A stretch of DNA of 64,000 nt. Source: an uncultured Bacteroidales bacterium. Its GTDB lineage: Bacteria > Bacteroidota > Bacteroidia > Bacteroidales > Muribaculaceae. The translations under genes were made by a program, and so were the position numbers. Below, piece after piece: positions 2,591-48,445 of the stretch (positions are counted from its first letter, which is position 1; each line of letters opens with the position of its first letter). The stretch covers positions 22,207-86,206 of the forward strand of contig CACZNH010000015.1 in NCBI GenBank assembly GCA_902782465.1. Direction: 5' to 3'. The notes under the pieces are model-generated. The model searched no databases, was not told the DNA's origin, and saw nothing but the letters and a program-made list of their open reading frames with translations.

Positions 2591-2694
2591 GGCATTAGGC
2601 GTTAGGCAATAGGCGTTAGCTGGCATCCGCACCCTAAAGCCTAACACCTAAAGCCTAAAGCCTAAAACCTAAAACCTAAAGCCTAAAGCCTAAC
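2591..2694. repeat. Heptad-like TTAGGC/CCTAAAG intergenic repeat
   Basis: The left half contains TTAGGC-type units and the right half about eight CCTAAAG or CCTAAAA units. The two halves are complementary, so the RNA could fold into a ragged hairpin between the receptor gene and pnuT. Similar low-complexity strings occur between other Bacteroidales genes. It may tune read-through from the receptor into pnuT. It is not a CRISPR array, because there are no unique spacers. Confidence 0.6.
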
Positions 2695-2695
2695 A

Positions 2696-3328
2696 ATGGA
2701 CGCGATTGTACAATATTTCAATAACTTCGGGTGGGTCGAGGCGATTGACCTGGCTGGCCTGGTGTTGGGACTCATTTACCTGTGGCTGGAGTTCAAGGCG
2801 AGCATCTGGCTATGGCTCGTGAGTGTCATCATGCCCATCGTACACGGCTACCTGTATTGGGAACGCGGCCTGTATGCCGACTTCGGCATGGAGGTGTATT
2901 ACGTCCTTGCCGCCATCTACGGCTACGCCATGTGGCGCTGGGTGCGCACGCGCGGAAAAAACGAAAAAAGTGGAGAGAACGGAGAGAACGGGGAGCGACC
3001 CATCACCCGTTTCCCGCTGCGGCGTGTGCTGCCCGTGGCACTCATCGGCTTAGCGCTGTGGGGCATCATCTATTGGGTGCTCATCACCTGGACCGACAGC
3101 AGCGTCCCCCTGTGCGACAGCTTCACCACCGCCCTGAGTATGGTTGCCCTGTGGGCCCTGGCTCAGAAGTATGCCGAGCAGTGGCTGTTGTGGCTCGTCG
3201 TCGATGCCGTCTGCGCCATCCTTTATATCTACAAGCAAATCCCCTTCACGGCCTGCCTCTACGCCTTCTACACCGTCATGGCCGTCCTGGGCTACCGCCA
3301 GTGGCTCAAGAAAATCCCCACTACCTGA
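2696..3328 (+). CDS. pnuT: PnuC/PnuT-family permease, probable thiamine transporter
   Basis: Inner-membrane protein of 210 residues with about seven hydrophobic segments and the PnuC-family pattern WLVSVIMPIVHGYLYW followed by FGMEVYYVLAAIYGYAMWRW. PnuC proteins carry nicotinamide riboside, while homologues under a TPP riboswitch (PnuT) carry thiamine. Here the gene follows the TPP-controlled receptor, so thiamine is the likely substrate. A charged loop rich in Lys, Glu, Asn and Gly at about residues 85-98 separates the two halves. In many Bacteroidota the next gene is thiamine pyrophosphokinase; it is absent here. The last 13 codons are duplicated 925 bp downstream, beyond the toxin-antitoxin genes. 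Confidence 0.85.
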   Translation: MDAIVQYFNNFGWVEAIDLAGLVLGLIYLWLEFKASIWLWLVSVIMPIVHGYLYWERGLYADFGMEVYYVLAAIYGYAMWRWVRTRGKNEKSGENGENGERPITRFPLRRVLPVALIGLALWGIIYWVLITWTDSSVPLCDSFTTALSMVALWALAQKYAEQWLLWLVVDAVCAILYIYKQIPFTACLYAFYTVMAVLGYRQWLKKIPTT

Positions 3329-42510: not shown

Positions 42511-44049
42511 ATGTTTGAAGGACAACCTAAAGGACTATTCGCGTTGGCACTGGCCAATACGGGCGAACGCTTCGGCTACTACACGATGATTGCCGTGTTC
42601 GCTCTCTTCCTCAGGGCCAACTATGGCTTGTCACCCGCAGTTGCCGGCACCATCTACAGTTCATTCCTGATGGTGGTGTATTTCCTCCCGCTCATCGGCG
42701 GCTGGATGGCCGACAAGTTCGGCTTCGGCAAGATGGTGACCATCGGTATCATCATCATGTTCCTGGGATACCTGCTGCTGTCGGTGCCCCTGGGCGGCAA
42801 CATGTTTGCACTCATCGTGATGATTGGCGCATTGTTGCTCATTGGACTAGGCACGGGTCTGTTCAAGGGCAACCTGCAGGTGATGGTGGGCAACTTGTAT
42901 GACGACCCGCAGTACGCTGCAAAGCGTGACTCCGGCTTCTCGATTTTCTACATGGCCATCAACATCGGCGCCCTGTTCGCTCCGACGGCCGCCGTTAAAA
43001 TCAAGGAGTATGCCGAGACCGCACTGGGCTTCTCGTCCAATGATGCCTACCACTTCTCGTTTGCCGTGGCTTGTGCCTCGCTGATTCTGTCGATTGCCAT
43101 CTATTATGCCTTCCGCAGCACCTTCCGTCACTGCGAGGGTGGCAAGAAGGCCGCCGTCAAGGACGACAACACCGTGAAGGAGCCTGAGCTGAGCAAGGAT
43201 GAGACCAAACAGCGCATCATCGCCCTGTGCCTCGTGTTTGCCGTCGTGGTATTCTTCTGGATGGCATTCCACCAGAACGGACTGTCGCTTACCTTCTTTG
43301 CCGACGAATTCACCGCCAACACGTCTAGCGGCCTGCAGAGCATGGCCTTTGACGTGTGGAACCTGGTACTGGTCATCTTCATCGTCTATGCCGGCTTCTC
43401 ACTGTTCCAGAGCAAGACGGCCAAGGCCAAGGGCATCTCGGGAGCCATCATCCTGGCGGCGCTGGGTATCCTGTACTACAAGTACGCCCGCACCACCGGC
43501 AGCATCGACATCGCAGCCCCGATTTTCCAGCAGTTCAACCCGTTCTACGTCGTAGCGTTGACGCCCGTTTCGATGGCCATCTTCGGCTGGCTGGCCGAGA
43601 AAGGCAAGGAGCCGTCGGCTCCGCGCAAGATTGCCTACGGTATGGTAGTCGCCGCCATCGCCTATGCCCTGATGGCATTTGCCTCGACAGGTCTGCCCAT
43701 GCCGCAGCAGGCGCCCGACGCCAGCGGCAACCTCGTGGGCCAGCATGTTGCCGACGTGACGCCCAACCTGCTCATCAGCGTCTATCTGATTCTCACCTTC
43801 GGCGAGCTGCTGCTCTCCCCGATGGGCATCTCGTTCGTCAGCAAGGTGGCGCCTCCCAAGTACAAGGGTGCGATGATGGGTGGCTGGTTCGTTTCCACCG
43901 CGCTGGGTAACCAGCTCGTCCTCGTGGGCGGTGCCCTGTGGGGCAAGGTGCCCTTGTGGGTATGCTGGAGCGTCTTCATGGGTGTCTGCCTCGTCGCAGC
44001 CATCTTCATGTTCGCCATGATGAAGCGCCTCGAGAAAGTCGCGAAGTAA
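42511..44049 (+). CDS. POT-family (proton-dependent oligopeptide) transporter 2
   Basis: 512-residue paralogue of the upstream transporter. It has the same layout of membrane helices and motifs (ANTGERFGYYTMIAVFALFL, GTGLFKGNLQVMVGNLYDDP and FFWMAFHQNGLSLTFFADEF). It differs in the central loop, which is shorter and charged, and in the loop sequence after helix 9. Tandem POT genes suggest specialisation for different peptides. Immediately downstream is the palindrome of the RAYT element. Confidence 0.85.
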   Translation: MFEGQPKGLFALALANTGERFGYYTMIAVFALFLRANYGLSPAVAGTIYSSFLMVVYFLPLIGGWMADKFGFGKMVTIGIIIMFLGYLLLSVPLGGNMFALIVMIGALLLIGLGTGLFKGNLQVMVGNLYDDPQYAAKRDSGFSIFYMAINIGALFAPTAAVKIKEYAETALGFSSNDAYHFSFAVACASLILSIAIYYAFRSTFRHCEGGKKAAVKDDNTVKEPELSKDETKQRIIALCLVFAVVVFFWMAFHQNGLSLTFFADEFTANTSSGLQSMAFDVWNLVLVIFIVYAGFSLFQSKTAKAKGISGAIILAALGILYYKYARTTGSIDIAAPIFQQFNPFYVVALTPVSMAIFGWLAEKGKEPSAPRKIAYGMVVAAIAYALMAFASTGLPMPQQAPDASGNLVGQHVADVTPNLLISVYLILTFGELLLSPMGISFVSKVAPPKYKGAMMGGWFVSTALGNQLVLVGGALWGKVPLWVCWSVFMGVCLVAAIFMFAMMKRLEKVAK

Positions 44050-44060
44050 ACATCCACTAC

Positions 44061-44135
44061 AGCGAGCCGGAGGCTCGCAATACCTCGACAACCACGGCTG
44101 GCCCGTCGGAGTATTGCGAGCCTCCGGCTTGCTTT
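44061..44135 (+). repeat. Left REP-like palindrome
   Basis: AGCGAGCCGGAGGCTCGCAA at its start is complementary to TTGCGAGCCTCCGGCTTGCT at its end. The loop has a second, imperfect stem (CTCGAC/GTCGGAG). It is a strong stem in RNA or single-stranded DNA and the likely substrate of the transposase between the two copies. Confidence 0.88.
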
Positions 44136-44149
44136 AAAAACAACAAGAC

Positions 44150-45112
44150 ATGGACGATAAGCGCAACGAGGGCCGCAAGCTGTGGTCACAAAATCATTCC
44201 GACGTGCCCGCCACGCCCTCAATGAAGCGCCGGATGGTAAGCCACGACTACCAGGGCAAAGCCATCTACCTGATTACCCTGTGCGTGGAGGGGCGTGTCC
44301 CATGCCTCGGCACCCTGTGCAGTCCTGACGAGGACCATACTCAGCCGTGGGTCGCCCCCACCCCATTGGGAACAAAGGTCAAAGCCGAATGGGAGGGCAT
44401 CCCGCGATACTACCCTCAAATCAGGATACTGGCATTGACCCTCATGCCTGACCACATACATGGTATCCTGTTCGTCACCGATGTGCTCCCCGTGCATTTG
44501 GGTAAAGTCATCAACGGCTTCAAGGCTGGCTGCAACAGGGCAGCACAGGAGTTGGGACAAGCTGTTCCGCTATGGGAGAAAGGGTATACCGACGGTGTGC
44601 TCCGCGGTAAAGGGCAACTCAACCGTTGGATGGCTTACCTAGCTGACAACCCTCGACGGTTATGGATAAAGCGGAACCAGCACGACTATTTCAAGGTTTC
44701 CCATCTTCTCACCGTTGGCGGTGCTACAGTCAGCGCAGTGGGCAACCATCAGCTCCTGCATCACCCGTCAATCATGCAGGTCTATTGCTCGCGACGCATG
44801 AGCCAGGAGGAGATTGCCCGTGAGGGAGACCGCCTACTCGCACAAGGAGCCGTGCTTGTGTCCCCCGCCATCAGTCTGGGAGAGAAAACCATCATCAACA
44901 GAGCACTCGAGGCTGGAGTCCCCGTCATCCTCATCACCAACAATGGCCTCGGCGAAATGGCAAAGCCTGGCGGCAAGCTGTTCGACGCCTGCGCAGCAGG
45001 CAAGTTGCTTTTCGTCTCTCCATTCGAGCACCGCAACGACTACCAGCCATTGACGGCCGAATGCTGCCGCGAGATGAATGCCCTGGCCAGGTCCATCGCC
45101 AACAGGCAGTGA
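44150..45112 (+). CDS. RAYT (Y1) transposase fused to a Rossmann-like (DprA/LOG-like) domain
   Basis: 320 residues. The N-terminal part is a Y1/IS200-like HUH nuclease, with H102-I-H104 in LMPDHIHGILFV; candidate nucleophile tyrosines are Y146 (GYTD) and Y163 (AYLADNPRR). Such REP-associated transposases nick single-stranded hairpins. From about residue 185 a second domain follows (MQVYCSRRMSQEEIAREGDR, then GAVLVSPAISLGEKTIINRA and FDACAAGKLLFVSPF). It looks like a Rossmann fold of the DprA/LOG kind; this assignment rests on pattern only. DprA proteins bind single-stranded DNA, so the extra domain might hold the nicked strand. An alternative start is M25 at 44222. Confidence 0.8.
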   Translation: MDDKRNEGRKLWSQNHSDVPATPSMKRRMVSHDYQGKAIYLITLCVEGRVPCLGTLCSPDEDHTQPWVAPTPLGTKVKAEWEGIPRYYPQIRILALTLMPDHIHGILFVTDVLPVHLGKVINGFKAGCNRAAQELGQAVPLWEKGYTDGVLRGKGQLNRWMAYLADNPRRLWIKRNQHDYFKVSHLLTVGGATVSAVGNHQLLHHPSIMQVYCSRRMSQEEIAREGDRLLAQGAVLVSPAISLGEKTIINRALEAGVPVILITNNGLGEMAKPGGKLFDACAAGKLLFVSPFEHRNDYQPLTAECCREMNALARSIANRQ

Positions 45113-45120
45113 CACCACAC

Positions 45121-45195
45121 AGCGAGCCGGAGGCTCCTAATACTCCGACGGGCCAGTCGTGCTTGTCGAGGTATTGCGAGCCTCCGGCTCGCTTT
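45121..45195 (-). repeat. Right REP-like palindrome, inverted
   Basis: Same 75-bp length as the left palindrome and close to its reverse complement. Differences include CTCCTAA in place of CTCGCAA in the outer stem and a few loop bases. Together the two bracket the transposase gene. Confidence 0.88.
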
Positions 45196-45296: not shown

Positions 45297-46514
45297 ATGA
45301 CAAAATTAGTTGACAGATTTTTGAAGTATGTGAAGTTCGACACCCAGAGTGACGAACTCACCAACTTGACGCCCTCGACACCGGGCCAGATGGTGTTTGC
45401 CAAGGAGCTGGAAAAGGAATTGCACGCCATGGGCCTGAGCGACATCTCACTCGATGACAACGGCTACCTGTTTGCCACGCTGCCCGCCAACACCGACAAG
45501 CCCGTGCCCACCGTGGGCTTCATCGCCCACATGGACACCGCCCCCGACATGAGCGGCCATGACGTGAAACCCCGCATCGTGAAGTATGAGGGCGAGCCTA
45601 TCGTGCTCAGCGAGGAGCCCCGCATTGTCCTCGACCCTGTGCAGTTCCCCGAGATGAACGACTACAAGGGCCAGGACTTCATCGTCACCAGCGGTGACAC
45701 GCTGCTCGGTGCCGACGATAAGGCAGGTATTGCCGAGATTCTGTCTGCCATCGAATGGCTGCAGGAGCACCCCGAGGTGAAACACGGCAACATCCGCGTG
45801 GGCTTCAACCCCGACGAGGAAATCGGCTTGGGTGCCCACCACTTTGACGTGGAGAAGTTTGGCTGTGACTGGGCCTATACCATGGACGGTGGCGCCGTGG
45901 GCGAGCTGGAGTATGAAAACTTCAATGCCGCCAGCGCCAAGATTACCTTCAAGGGCCTGAACGTCCATCCCGGTGCCGCCAAGCACAAGATGCTCAACTC
46001 GATGCGCGTTGCCCTGCAGTTCGCTGCCATGCTGCCGCGCTGGGAGACGCCCGAGCACACCGAGGGCTACGAGGGTTTCTACCACCTCATCCACATGGAA
46101 GGTGGCGTTGAGCAGACCACGCTGAACTACATCATCCGCGACCACGACCGCGCCCGCTTTGAGAGCCGCAAGCGCGAAATCGAGCACCTGTGCCGCAAAA
46201 TCAACTCCGAGTTCCCCGATTGCGCTTCGTGCGAAATCAAGGACCAGTACTACAACATGCGCGAGAAGATTGAGCCGGTGATGAACATCATCGACATCGC
46301 CAAGCAGGCTATGGAGAATGCCGGCGTCACCCCCAAGGTGCAGCCCATCCGTGGCGGTACCGACGGTGCCCAGCTGTCGTTCAAGAACCTGCCCTGCCCC
46401 AACATCTTTGCCGGCGGCATGAACATGCACGGTCGCTTTGAGTATGTGCCCATCCCCTCGATGGAGAAGGCGATGATGACCATCATCGAGATTTGCAAGC
46501 TGGTGGCCGAATGA
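45297..46514 (+). CDS. pepT: Peptidase T (tripeptide aminopeptidase)
   Basis: 405-residue cytoplasmic M20 metallopeptidase that removes the N-terminal residue from tripeptides. Zinc-binding and catalytic blocks are [14 protein letters not shown] (His78/Asp80-type), [28 protein letters not shown] (catalytic Glu) and [20 protein letters not shown], and the C-terminal zinc ligand region is [11 protein letters not shown] followed by [14 protein letters not shown]. It is complete and of family length. It may act on peptides brought in by the two POT transporters encoded just upstream. Confidence 0.95.
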
Positions 46515-46717: not shown

Positions 46718-48445
46718 TTACAGGATGATACTGATAATTGCGTTGATGTCACTGATGTTGACTACGCCATCTTTATTGACGTCGGCATTCTTGTCAAAGC
46801 CACCCGCCAGGATGATGTTGATGACAGCATTAATGTCGCTGATGTTGACCACGCCATCCAGATTCACGTCACCAGGCAGTACAGGTTCCGGTCCGGGATC
46901 CCTGGGAATAAAGACGTTCTCATCAAGATACACCATGCGGCGGCGAATCCAATCCTCGACATACTGCATCTCATTGATGAGATTGAGTTCTTTCCTATTG
47001 AGGTCAGTGTCCCTGCTCCATCGAGCCTCCTCGCGTTCAGCAGCGCCACAATCCACCAGGTTGTCAATAGCAGCCCAATAGCGGTTCACGAGGCTGTCGG
47101 TGTGGAGTTTGGTCTTCCTCAGTTCAGCATAGCGCTCGTTGAGCTGGTCAACCCACTCATCGACTTCCATCATGTCGGCCATGGGAATGTGCATCATCCA
47201 CTCGGTCACGGGACGCTCAGGCTTCACCATCTCAGGATGACTGGCATTGGGGGCATAGTTGGCACCCAAGCAGATGTCAAGGTCCCAGGGAACCATGGTC
47301 AGCAGAAGGCTGTCTTGCGTGTCATAGCATGCATAGTAGATGTTCTTGCATGAATTGTCCAATGCCTGCAACGCAGCGACAAAGATGTAATAGTCCTGCA
47401 TAACGGGCATGTCGAAGTAATATTTCATGCTATCGATGCGCAATTGGATATCGCTGTTGTCGGCCCGATAGGCAAACTTGACAGCCTTGTCAAGAGCGGT
47501 CCAGTTGGAACGGCCAATCTCGTCGTAGTCGGGATACTTGTACTCAAAACCGTCCCAATAGGTGGGAAGACTGGTGTACCTCCTTTGCGGATCACTCATT
47601 GCAGTGGTGGTGGTCATCTTGTAAGCGGTCCAGAGCACACCGTGGAACATCCTGTTCTCCTCATCGTAACGTTTGATTTTGAGCTGCTTGCGGTCAATGG
47701 GCTCACACATGTTGTAGATACCCATATAGGCACCGTTCAAGAGCACCTCAACCATTTGGCCACGTGAACCGTTGTTCACCTTTCCTACCGAGTCGGCATA
47801 CCAGGGCTGGCGGGCAAAGTCCAGCCACAGGTCGGTGCTCACGCGGTTGCGCACACGCAGGAAGTCCATCTGTCCAGCATCCAGAATCCAGTTGTTGTCA
47901 TTGCGCAGGCCGAAGAAGCGGTGGTTGGCCTTTGTCGAGTCCTCGTTGACAAATTTGACACGGTAGTTGCGTTTGTGCTTTCCGGAGACATTGGTTGCGC
48001 CGCCGCGCCACTTCACCTTTGCCTTCAAGGGTTCAGCGTATGCCGAGTCTGGCTCGCTCACCCTCACGGTGCCATAGGTGTATTCGGTGTTGAACACGCC
48101 CTCCAGTTCCACTATCGGGAGCCAGGTGAAGGTGATGTGTCCCGTAACGAGTTCACTTCCCTTATACACGGTGACGGTGTAGTTCTTGCCTCCGGCAACA
48201 CGCGCGAAGGTATAGGTCTCGCCGTTGTCTACGGCAGTGCCATCGATAACGAGAGTCCTCACATCGGCGTCAAAGTTTACCGTCGCAGTGAAGTTCTGGC
48301 CGAAGTAGTCCTGCGGAATACTGCACAACCAGATGTTATTGAGGGTGTCGAGCACCGCGCGGTGGCCACCAATGTTAAACGCCTGTGCCCAGCATCCGAT
48401 GCCGGCCATGAGGCACAATGTCAATAAAAGTAACTTCTTTCTCAT
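46718..48445 (-). CDS. Secreted CotH-kinase-family protein with C-terminal dockerin
   Basis: 575 residues with a signal peptide (about 1-20). A beta-rich N-terminal part (about 25-125) precedes a CotH-like atypical kinase domain (about 130-480). Recognisable pieces are KVKWRGGATNVSGKHKRNYR (nucleotide-binding region), NGAYMGIYNMCEPIDRKQLK and MVPWDLDICLGANY (metal-binding DxD-like). C-terminal dockerin-like calcium loops lie at about 520-575 (GDVNLDGVVNISDINAVINI and ADVNKDGVVNISDINAIISI). CotH proteins phosphorylate secreted proteins; in gut anaerobes they are often linked to dockerins. The start at 48445 is chosen because it opens the signal peptide. Confidence 0.82.
   Translation of the reverse strand: MRKKLLLLTLCLMAGIGCWAQAFNIGGHRAVLDTLNNIWLCSIPQDYFGQNFTATVNFDADVRTLVIDGTAVDNGETYTFARVAGGKNYTVTVYKGSELVTGHITFTWLPIVELEGVFNTEYTYGTVRVSEPDSAYAEPLKAKVKWRGGATNVSGKHKRNYRVKFVNEDSTKANHRFFGLRNDNNWILDAGQMDFLRVRNRVSTDLWLDFARQPWYADSVGKVNNGSRGQMVEVLLNGAYMGIYNMCEPIDRKQLKIKRYDEENRMFHGVLWTAYKMTTTTAMSDPQRRYTSLPTYWDGFEYKYPDYDEIGRSNWTALDKAVKFAYRADNSDIQLRIDSMKYYFDMPVMQDYYIFVAALQALDNSCKNIYYACYDTQDSLLLTMVPWDLDICLGANYAPNASHPEMVKPERPVTEWMMHIPMADMMEVDEWVDQLNERYAELRKTKLHTDSLVNRYWAAIDNLVDCGAAEREEARWSRDTDLNRKELNLINEMQYVEDWIRRRMVYLDENVFIPRDPGPEPVLPGDVNLDGVVNISDINAVINIILAGGFDKNADVNKDGVVNISDINAIISIIL

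Follow-up and report, generated by a model that had tools for sequence, protein, structure and literature searches.

A RAYT-type Y1/HUH gene fused to a DprA-like domain and flanked by REPIN-like palindromes in an uncultured Bacteroidales bacterium

Introduction

To our knowledge, the reason that bacteria keep RAYT genes is an open question, and a gene in the 64,000-nucleotide stretch of uncultured Bacteroidales DNA analysed here (the window) raises it in a specific form: what does such a nuclease do when it is fused to a second domain and set between two palindromes? The open reading frame (44150..45112, plus strand; 963 bp, 320 aa) encodes a single-tyrosine HUH (Y1) domain followed by a C-terminal domain (CTD) of about 135 residues, and a palindrome of about 75 nt lies on either side of it. 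Its upstream neighbour is the peptide-transporter gene POT2 (42511-44049) and its downstream neighbour is pepT (45297-46514), both names having been read from the translations. The first-pass annotation had recognised a Y1/HUH transposase with an H102-x-H104 motif and an extra C-terminal domain of ~135 residues, and our analysis bears this out, with the CTD spanning approximately residues 184-320. Its statement that REP-associated transposases are known from Gammaproteobacteria is too narrow, as Bacteroidetes subclasses are described in PMC6006769. In the literature collection searched, no paper combines RAYT with DprA, or DprA, HUH, transposase and fusion.

We propose that the fused gene and its hairpins are a variant of the REP/RAYT system that is new in architecture and that probably takes its own hairpins, in the form of single-stranded DNA (ssDNA), as substrate. 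The reading that we favour, and that we consider reasonably likely, is a settled REP/RAYT unit that would nick its own tagged hairpins with a DprA-type domain as helper or restraint.

The fused gene is a RAYT in the broad sense

The HUH motif of the N-terminal Y1/HUH domain (residues 1-183; 44150..44698, plus strand) reads D101-H102-I-H104 in the window protein. H102-I-H104 (44453..44461, plus strand) is invariant in a 20-member alignment, and both histidines are kept in 13 of 14 orthologues (alignment A2), the exception being orthologue L010, which has Asn at 102. Judged by its sequence, this copy may be inactive, having lost the first histidine of the motif; it also has a single downstream REP-like unit and is perhaps decaying. 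The candidate catalytic tyrosine, Y163 within YLADNP (44636..44638, plus strand), to which a role is assigned by homology, is the same residue throughout the 20-member alignment and in 14/14 orthologues. It lies 59 residues past H104, and in the window gene no hairpin is inserted between HUH and Y.

The NCBIfam model REP_Tyr_transpos (NF047646) matched the window protein with an E-value of 9.3e-9 and 35.3 bits, which is below its curated cut-off of 80, and the gene was therefore placed with the RAYTs in the broad sense and outside this equivalog. Pfam Y1_Tnp matched the window protein under its cut-off (E 0.088) and 17 of 20 homologues at E-values up to 1, the best being 2.3e-5. An AF2 model of the whole protein, built from 14 sequences, was poor (mean pLDDT 55); the Foldseek matches to this model nevertheless included the TnpA proteins of ISHp608 and ISDra2 (E ~1e-5) and, at E 4.2e-4, 4er8, the RAYT-REP complex of E. 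coli. On the strength of these model-based matches, the first half of the protein is predicted to fold like IS200/IS605 and RAYT transposases.

The gene is thus a RAYT/TnpA_REP in the broad sense, by its fold, its catalytic residues and its flanking hairpins, although it falls short of the NCBIfam cut-off and of the abundance of REPs. As with REP-associated tyrosine transposases (RAYT, TnpA_REP; for example E. coli RAYT 4er8), a Y1/HUH fold is combined with tagged hairpins that flank the gene and with orthologues at a fixed site, and the gene diverges faster than its neighbour, as PMC2817692 reports for RAYTs. Unlike these, the fused gene adds a DprA-like domain of ~135 residues, has few unit copies and resides in a Bacteroidales host, and its tag is GTATT, as against the GTAG-type tags that published descriptions give for REPs. 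IS200/IS605 elements also join a Y1/HUH domain to hairpin substrates; unlike them, the fused gene keeps to a fixed locus, and this genome contains no second gene nearly identical to it.

Two TnpA_Y1 subclasses were compared through their descriptions in PMC6006769 (Quentin et al. 2018). Subclass 2.4 is found in Bacteroidetes and carries hairpins in frame between HUH and Y, as do sister fused genes, though not the window gene. It is described as having no extension after the core, unlike the window protein with its ~135-aa CTD, and its motifs are given as NH[IFV]H, WQ and YIxNNP versus DH[LI]H, WE and YLxDNP here. Subclass 2.6 also occurs in Bacteroidetes and is flanked by 'atypical secondary structures', but its members have a median length of 179 aa and a short tail (29, as read from the table). 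These descriptions set the gene apart from both, and it belongs to neither subclass 2.4 nor subclass 2.6.

Each palindrome is a pair of facing REP-like hairpins

The left palindrome, an inverted repeat (44058..44136), begins 8 nt past the end of the transporter gene, and the right one, likewise an inverted repeat (45119..about 45197), begins 6-8 nt past the stop codon of the fused gene. Each had been taken for a single unit; we found instead that each consists of two 22-nt REP-like hairpins, GTATT followed by GCGAGCCnnnGGCTCGC, placed face to face, with a 7-bp stem and a 3-nt loop. On the left, unit 1 (44062..44083, minus strand) forms 7/7 stem pairs and unit 2 (44111..44132, plus strand) 6/7; on the right, unit 3 (45122..45143, minus strand) is imperfect with 5/7 and unit 4 (45171..45192, plus strand) forms 7/7. 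A REPIN is two REPs that face each other and form one hairpin. The facing pairs at this locus resemble REPINs in folding as one long hairpin and differ from them in number, with 0-14 units per genome here. When folded as ssDNA, the left palindrome reaches -33.1 kcal/mol (z -9.55) and the right one -29.0 kcal/mol (z -7.87), and in neither case were any of 200 shuffles as good.

To each other, the two palindromes match at 92% over 76 nt when inverted and at 76% over 91 nt when direct. The inverted arrangement that had been described for them therefore stands for the window, but it is not the rule: across 15 orthologues the mutual orientation is direct in 10, inverted in two (the window and L037) and undecided in three.

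A search with the tag alone recovered the hairpin. At least 5/7 stem pairs followed 45 of the 48 GTATT tags that lie within 250 nt of 14 orthologues, versus only 5 of 155 GTATT tags elsewhere in the same sequences. These 45 units (19 distinct; the three other tags, with fewer than 4 pairs, were dropped) were then used for a covariation test of five measures, two of which were equalled by some shuffles. Pairing holds in 97% of cells and falls to 8-40% when the partner is slid. None of 500 shuffles equalled the covariation score or the number of cells in which both sides had changed; the number of pairs changed in this way was 2, which 64/500 shuffles reached, and the further pair types were reached by 46/500.

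That the palindromes belong to the gene had been made to depend on their presence beside homologous fusions. With up to three substitutions allowed, no orthologue among the 15 lacks a unit on either side; two units stand upstream in 13 and downstream in 10. The genome-wide search that had been proposed gave the core GAGCCGGAGGCTC at three places, all of them at the fused-gene locus, and the generalised unit GTATTRCGRGCYNNNRGCYCG at six places, two of them at this locus.

The position of both palindromes, 6-8 nt past stop codons, raises the alternative that they are mere transcription terminators of the transporter and RAYT genes, the latter being an ordinary domesticated nuclease. Solitary units on two other contigs (C19 and C34) also stand a few nucleotides after an apparent stop codon, as judged by eye, and T runs follow the downstream units in several orthologues. 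A fixed GTATT tag, a facing hairpin pair and linkage to a particular gene are, however, not required of a terminator, and the units flank both sides of every orthologue, so we consider this alternative unlikely. In the mechanism that we prefer, the Y1/HUH domain would recognise the tagged hairpin (5'-GTATT + GCGAGCCnnnGGCTCGC) as ssDNA, probably at replication, and Y163 would nick and rejoin it. The flanking REPIN-like pairs would then be the substrates of this domain and the source of the few dispersed copies.

The gene occupies a fixed site in related genomes

The orthologues form a clade of 15 with support of 100/100 in the tree, and the fused gene sits directly after POT2 in 13/13 loci (in L006, the contig holds only the end of POT2). 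The orthologous proteins differ from the window protein at 22-28% of residues. Codon alignments of 91 pairs gave median dN/dS values of 0.119 for the N-terminal domain and 0.100 for the CTD (finite in 91 and 87 pairs, respectively), and by these values both domains are under purifying selection. The fused gene diverges faster than POT2, with a median dN of 0.138 versus 0.026 for the same 15 pairs from 6 genomes. A lasting union of nuclease and DprA-type domain, with similar purifying selection on both, points to a concrete job for the fusion, either the handling of single strands or self-restraint.

Of 61 same-genus genomes, 47 gave a match to the whole protein, as did 12 of 40 others (most of the latter reach the Y1 part only or were left unresolved). 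In an order-level search of 344 genomes, 125 gave a match, with the fusion present in at least 14 genomes from 8 families, and 65 distinct fused proteins were collected, the window protein counted among them. Searching 295 genomes of the class with the CTD profile gave matches in this genome and two others, one of them by chance. No relative of the fused protein was found in a scan of viral contigs, and PHROGs had no family for the two proteins submitted.

For the comparison of occupied and empty sites that had been suggested, we read the sequence following POT2 in 30 loci and judged the units there by eye. The fused gene is present in nine of these loci (L133, which is the window, and L135, L137, L138, L142, L145, L146, L147 and L150). 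Two loci, L134 and L140, lack the gene and retain one palindrome, with the same downstream neighbour as at most occupied sites. A single unit stands ahead of pepT in L144 and L148 and a partial unit in L149; L136, L139 and L141 are without any unit after POT2, and the other 13 loci have different downstream sequence. The gene-less sites with a solo palindrome fit loss of the gene via the repeats and fit insertion at a palindrome equally.

A site that the gene occupies in some related genomes and not in others would be expected of a still mobile IS-like element with the palindromes as its transposon ends, and this genome holds two divergent fused paralogues besides the window gene. These paralogues are, however, merely 52% and 47% identical to it (in an assembly that may be incomplete), the gene keeps to one site in all 13 loci while its orthologues differ by the amounts given above, and the palindromes keep no single mutual orientation. 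As the gene-less sites can be read as loss just as well, we regard a mobile element as very unlikely and retain the settled REP/RAYT unit as the preferred reading.

Dispersed units were sought in 61 genomes. Of 37 same-genus genomes, 18 contain the unit pattern, compared with 0 of 24 others; a reversed-pattern control gave 0 in all 61. Within the genus, the pattern was found in 0 of 7 genomes without a fused-protein match versus 18 of 30 with one (Fisher p 0.008; such tests overstate independence here, since the genomes share ancestry and the assemblies are incomplete). The mean number of copies, the locus included, is 8.3 in the nine genomes with this orthologue versus 0.9 in the 28 others; this genome has 6, and the 37 same-genus genomes range from 0 to 14. 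Since the cognate REPs of RAYTs usually exceed 100 copies per genome (PMC2817692), the small number of units here suggests that mobilisation is rare or past.

One of the solitary units (L065, near 2323-2343; G000:C34:11322) stands at a junction whose two halves match different places in those same-genus genomes for which matches to both were listed. This suggests a rearrangement at the unit and is uninformative on insertion.

The C-terminal domain is probably of DprA descent

The CTD (residues 184-320; 44699..45109, plus strand) had been described as DprA/LOG-like. When it is aligned with Bacteroidales DprA, the GNxxLL segment, xSR, a VS(P/G) turn and an NG segment follow in the same order, and the same succession (GNxxLL entry, xSR, VS(G/P), NG/GL) is shared with DprA/Smf and PsyrA-type domains. 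Unlike these domains, the CTD stops soon after the fourth strand, lacks the Arg of motif 2 and is fused to a Y1 domain.

We compared the CTD with the ssDNA motifs 1 and 2 of DprA as quoted in PMC9769556 and with the key DprA residues given in PMC4489622. In the alignment with Bacteroidales DprA, C213-S-R-R216 (44786..44797, plus strand) is the counterpart of motif 1 (G-S/T/A-R); it is identical in 14/14 orthologues, the Ser and Arg of the motif being kept and the Gly replaced. N310 (45077..45079, plus strand), the counterpart of the Asn in motif 2 (F-x-x-R-N), is invariant in 24/24 CTDs and aligns with the R-N of two stand-alone relatives. The motif itself (F/L/Y-x-x-R-N/D) is represented by C-x-x-M-N in 14/14 orthologues and mostly by L-N in paralogues, so that almost every aligned CTD has Met or Leu in place of the Arg, the window protein having Met. 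The loss of this Arg argues against simple ssDNA binding in the manner of DprA.

A profile of 24 CTDs was searched against 177,635 PDB sequences, and the four best matches were all DprA chains (E 0.047-0.14); with the two stand-alone relatives added, the best DprA match improved to E 0.0027. Taken alone, none of these PDB matches is convincing, and the two stand-alone proteins (L060:1432-1965 and L099:1414-1866) form a better bridge. They match the CTD profile at 8.3e-9 and 9.5e-11, and hhalign of the CTD alignment against theirs gave E 2e-8 with a probability of 95%. On the other side, they match Pfam DprA (PF02481) at E 7.5e-6 and 2.7e-6, with 25.7 and 27.1 bits, just short of the gathering score of 29.6. 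Direct hhalign comparisons with Bacteroidales DprA gave E 0.0095 and a probability of 4% for the CTD (the same with 6 DprAs), E 0.017 and 3% for the two bridge proteins, and about 5.4e-4 and 30% for the CTD and bridge proteins together. The L099 bridge protein alone found no DprA in the PDB, and a Pfam scan called PF02481 in none of the 24 CTDs. When the CTD profile was run against 620 ORFs, a carboxylase-like ORF ranked above DprA.

An AF2 model of the CTD alone (pLDDT 66, with blocks within residues 21-80 at 72-94) has a strand-helix order that is Rossmann-like and DprA-like. Of the predicted-structure check that had been proposed, this beta-alpha order agreed with expectation, but no DprA was among the best 50 of 652 Foldseek matches to the model; asparaginases came first there (E 0.04 and up), with pyruvate kinases and a few others. 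Neither of the outcomes that the first-pass annotation had named as refuting it came about, although on the fold the picture is mixed.

Other identities were considered for the CTD. Within the same best 50 matches, the MoCo-binding protein 6y01, which we take to be LOG-like, appeared at E 0.14 as the sole item of this kind, and the Pfam, NCBIfam and PDB profile searches gave no LOG match, so the LOG half of the original assignment is favoured by no sequence search. Glycosyltransferase and HAD identities were set aside, each having been matched by one or two members at E 0.036 or worse. The top weak match to the CTD profile (L100, E 0.0056) lies in an ORF whose translation resembles, on reading, a subunit of acetyl-CoA carboxylase, and it was taken as chance.

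By its profile matches and the stand-alone bridge, the CTD is probably a diverged, shortened DprA-type Rossmann domain by descent. We call it DprA-like and keep it out of the DprA family because its Pfam score and its motif 2 both fall short.

The bridge protein L099 also matches the PADLOC model of PsyrA (E 1.3e-14), presumably an antitoxin, and this match together with the lost motif-2 Arg would suit a CTD that has no DNA-handling role and acts as an antitoxin-like or ligand-sensing SLOG-type restraint on the HUH nuclease, with the palindromes serving as in our main explanation. Stand-alone relatives beside DarG and DarT in two genomes point the same way. Against this, PsyrA is matched directly by only 2 of 24 CTDs (best E 7.1e-5), and DarG/DarT matches occur at only 3 of 22 stand-alone loci, two of which are one locus (L213 repeats L060); we rate a purely restraining CTD as the less probable option. 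In the settled REP/RAYT unit that we prefer, the CTD would most likely hold or present the single strand beside the HUH site, or else restrain the nuclease; the first-pass annotation had put forward a guarding or presenting role towards the hairpin, which so far is a hypothesis.

In the two genomes mentioned, which belong to different families, the DprA-like gene (150-177 aa) adjoins DarG, with DarT next (L060:359-1965 and L099:1414-3323), and it is possible that the stand-alone gene is the third gene of some darTG loci. Other stand-alone genes adjoin, by reading of the ORFs, a restriction-modification-like ORF (L214) and Fic/Doc-type and RhuM-type ORFs (L217 and L219). In L215, the DprA-like gene (1498-1962) lies upstream of a Y1/RAYT-like ORF (2606-3019, judged by eye) at a distance of ~640 bp, perhaps as an unfused pair and perhaps by chance.

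Hairpins lie outside or inside the fused genes

We asked where hairpins lie in 59 of the 65 fused proteins' genes, the other six (L010, L067, L069, L071, L111 and L113) having been left out for want of a recognisable motif pair. Matching palindromes on both sides were found for 23, the window gene among them, and an inner stem for 20, one gene (L004) having both, and by our thresholds 17 had neither. An inner hairpin was defined as a mismatch-free stem of 8 bp or more in the ORF between HUH and Y, which was reached by 6 of 118 control stretches from the same ORFs. The flank thresholds were set after the control had been seen (400 mismatched pairs, some of them related; 99th percentile 16 and 17, maximum 28 and 22), and the cut of 18 admits some chance matches, so that weak cases such as the AT-rich L112 may be false. 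In a comparison set of single-domain Y1 genes, 1 of 11 exceeded the control's 99th percentile for flanking palindromes.

The hairpins change in sequence and in place. The stem TTGCGTT/AACGCAA becomes TTGTGGC/GCCACAA within one subclade, and well-supported branches force at least five changes of the 'inside' label (on a tree whose long branches may be misplaced). We tentatively suggest, as a possibility that falls short of an even chance, that a REP transposase lineage acquired a domain of the DprA/PsyrA type, either to handle single strands or to act as a restraint, and that the home of the hairpin shifted repeatedly, outside both ends or in frame, with the gene always carrying its own target. 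The gene-present, gene-absent and hairpin-inside states in close relatives offer a natural series on the persistence and decay of REP systems.

The two paralogues in this genome (L063:3602-4558 and L064:5593-6570, on other contigs) each lie between their own, different palindromes, which are directly repeated. A sister fused gene (L049; G006:C13, ~47870-47890) contains a GTATT-tagged unit in frame. In L053, three tandem copies of a paralogue's repeat unit stand right behind the fused gene, as if units multiply locally.
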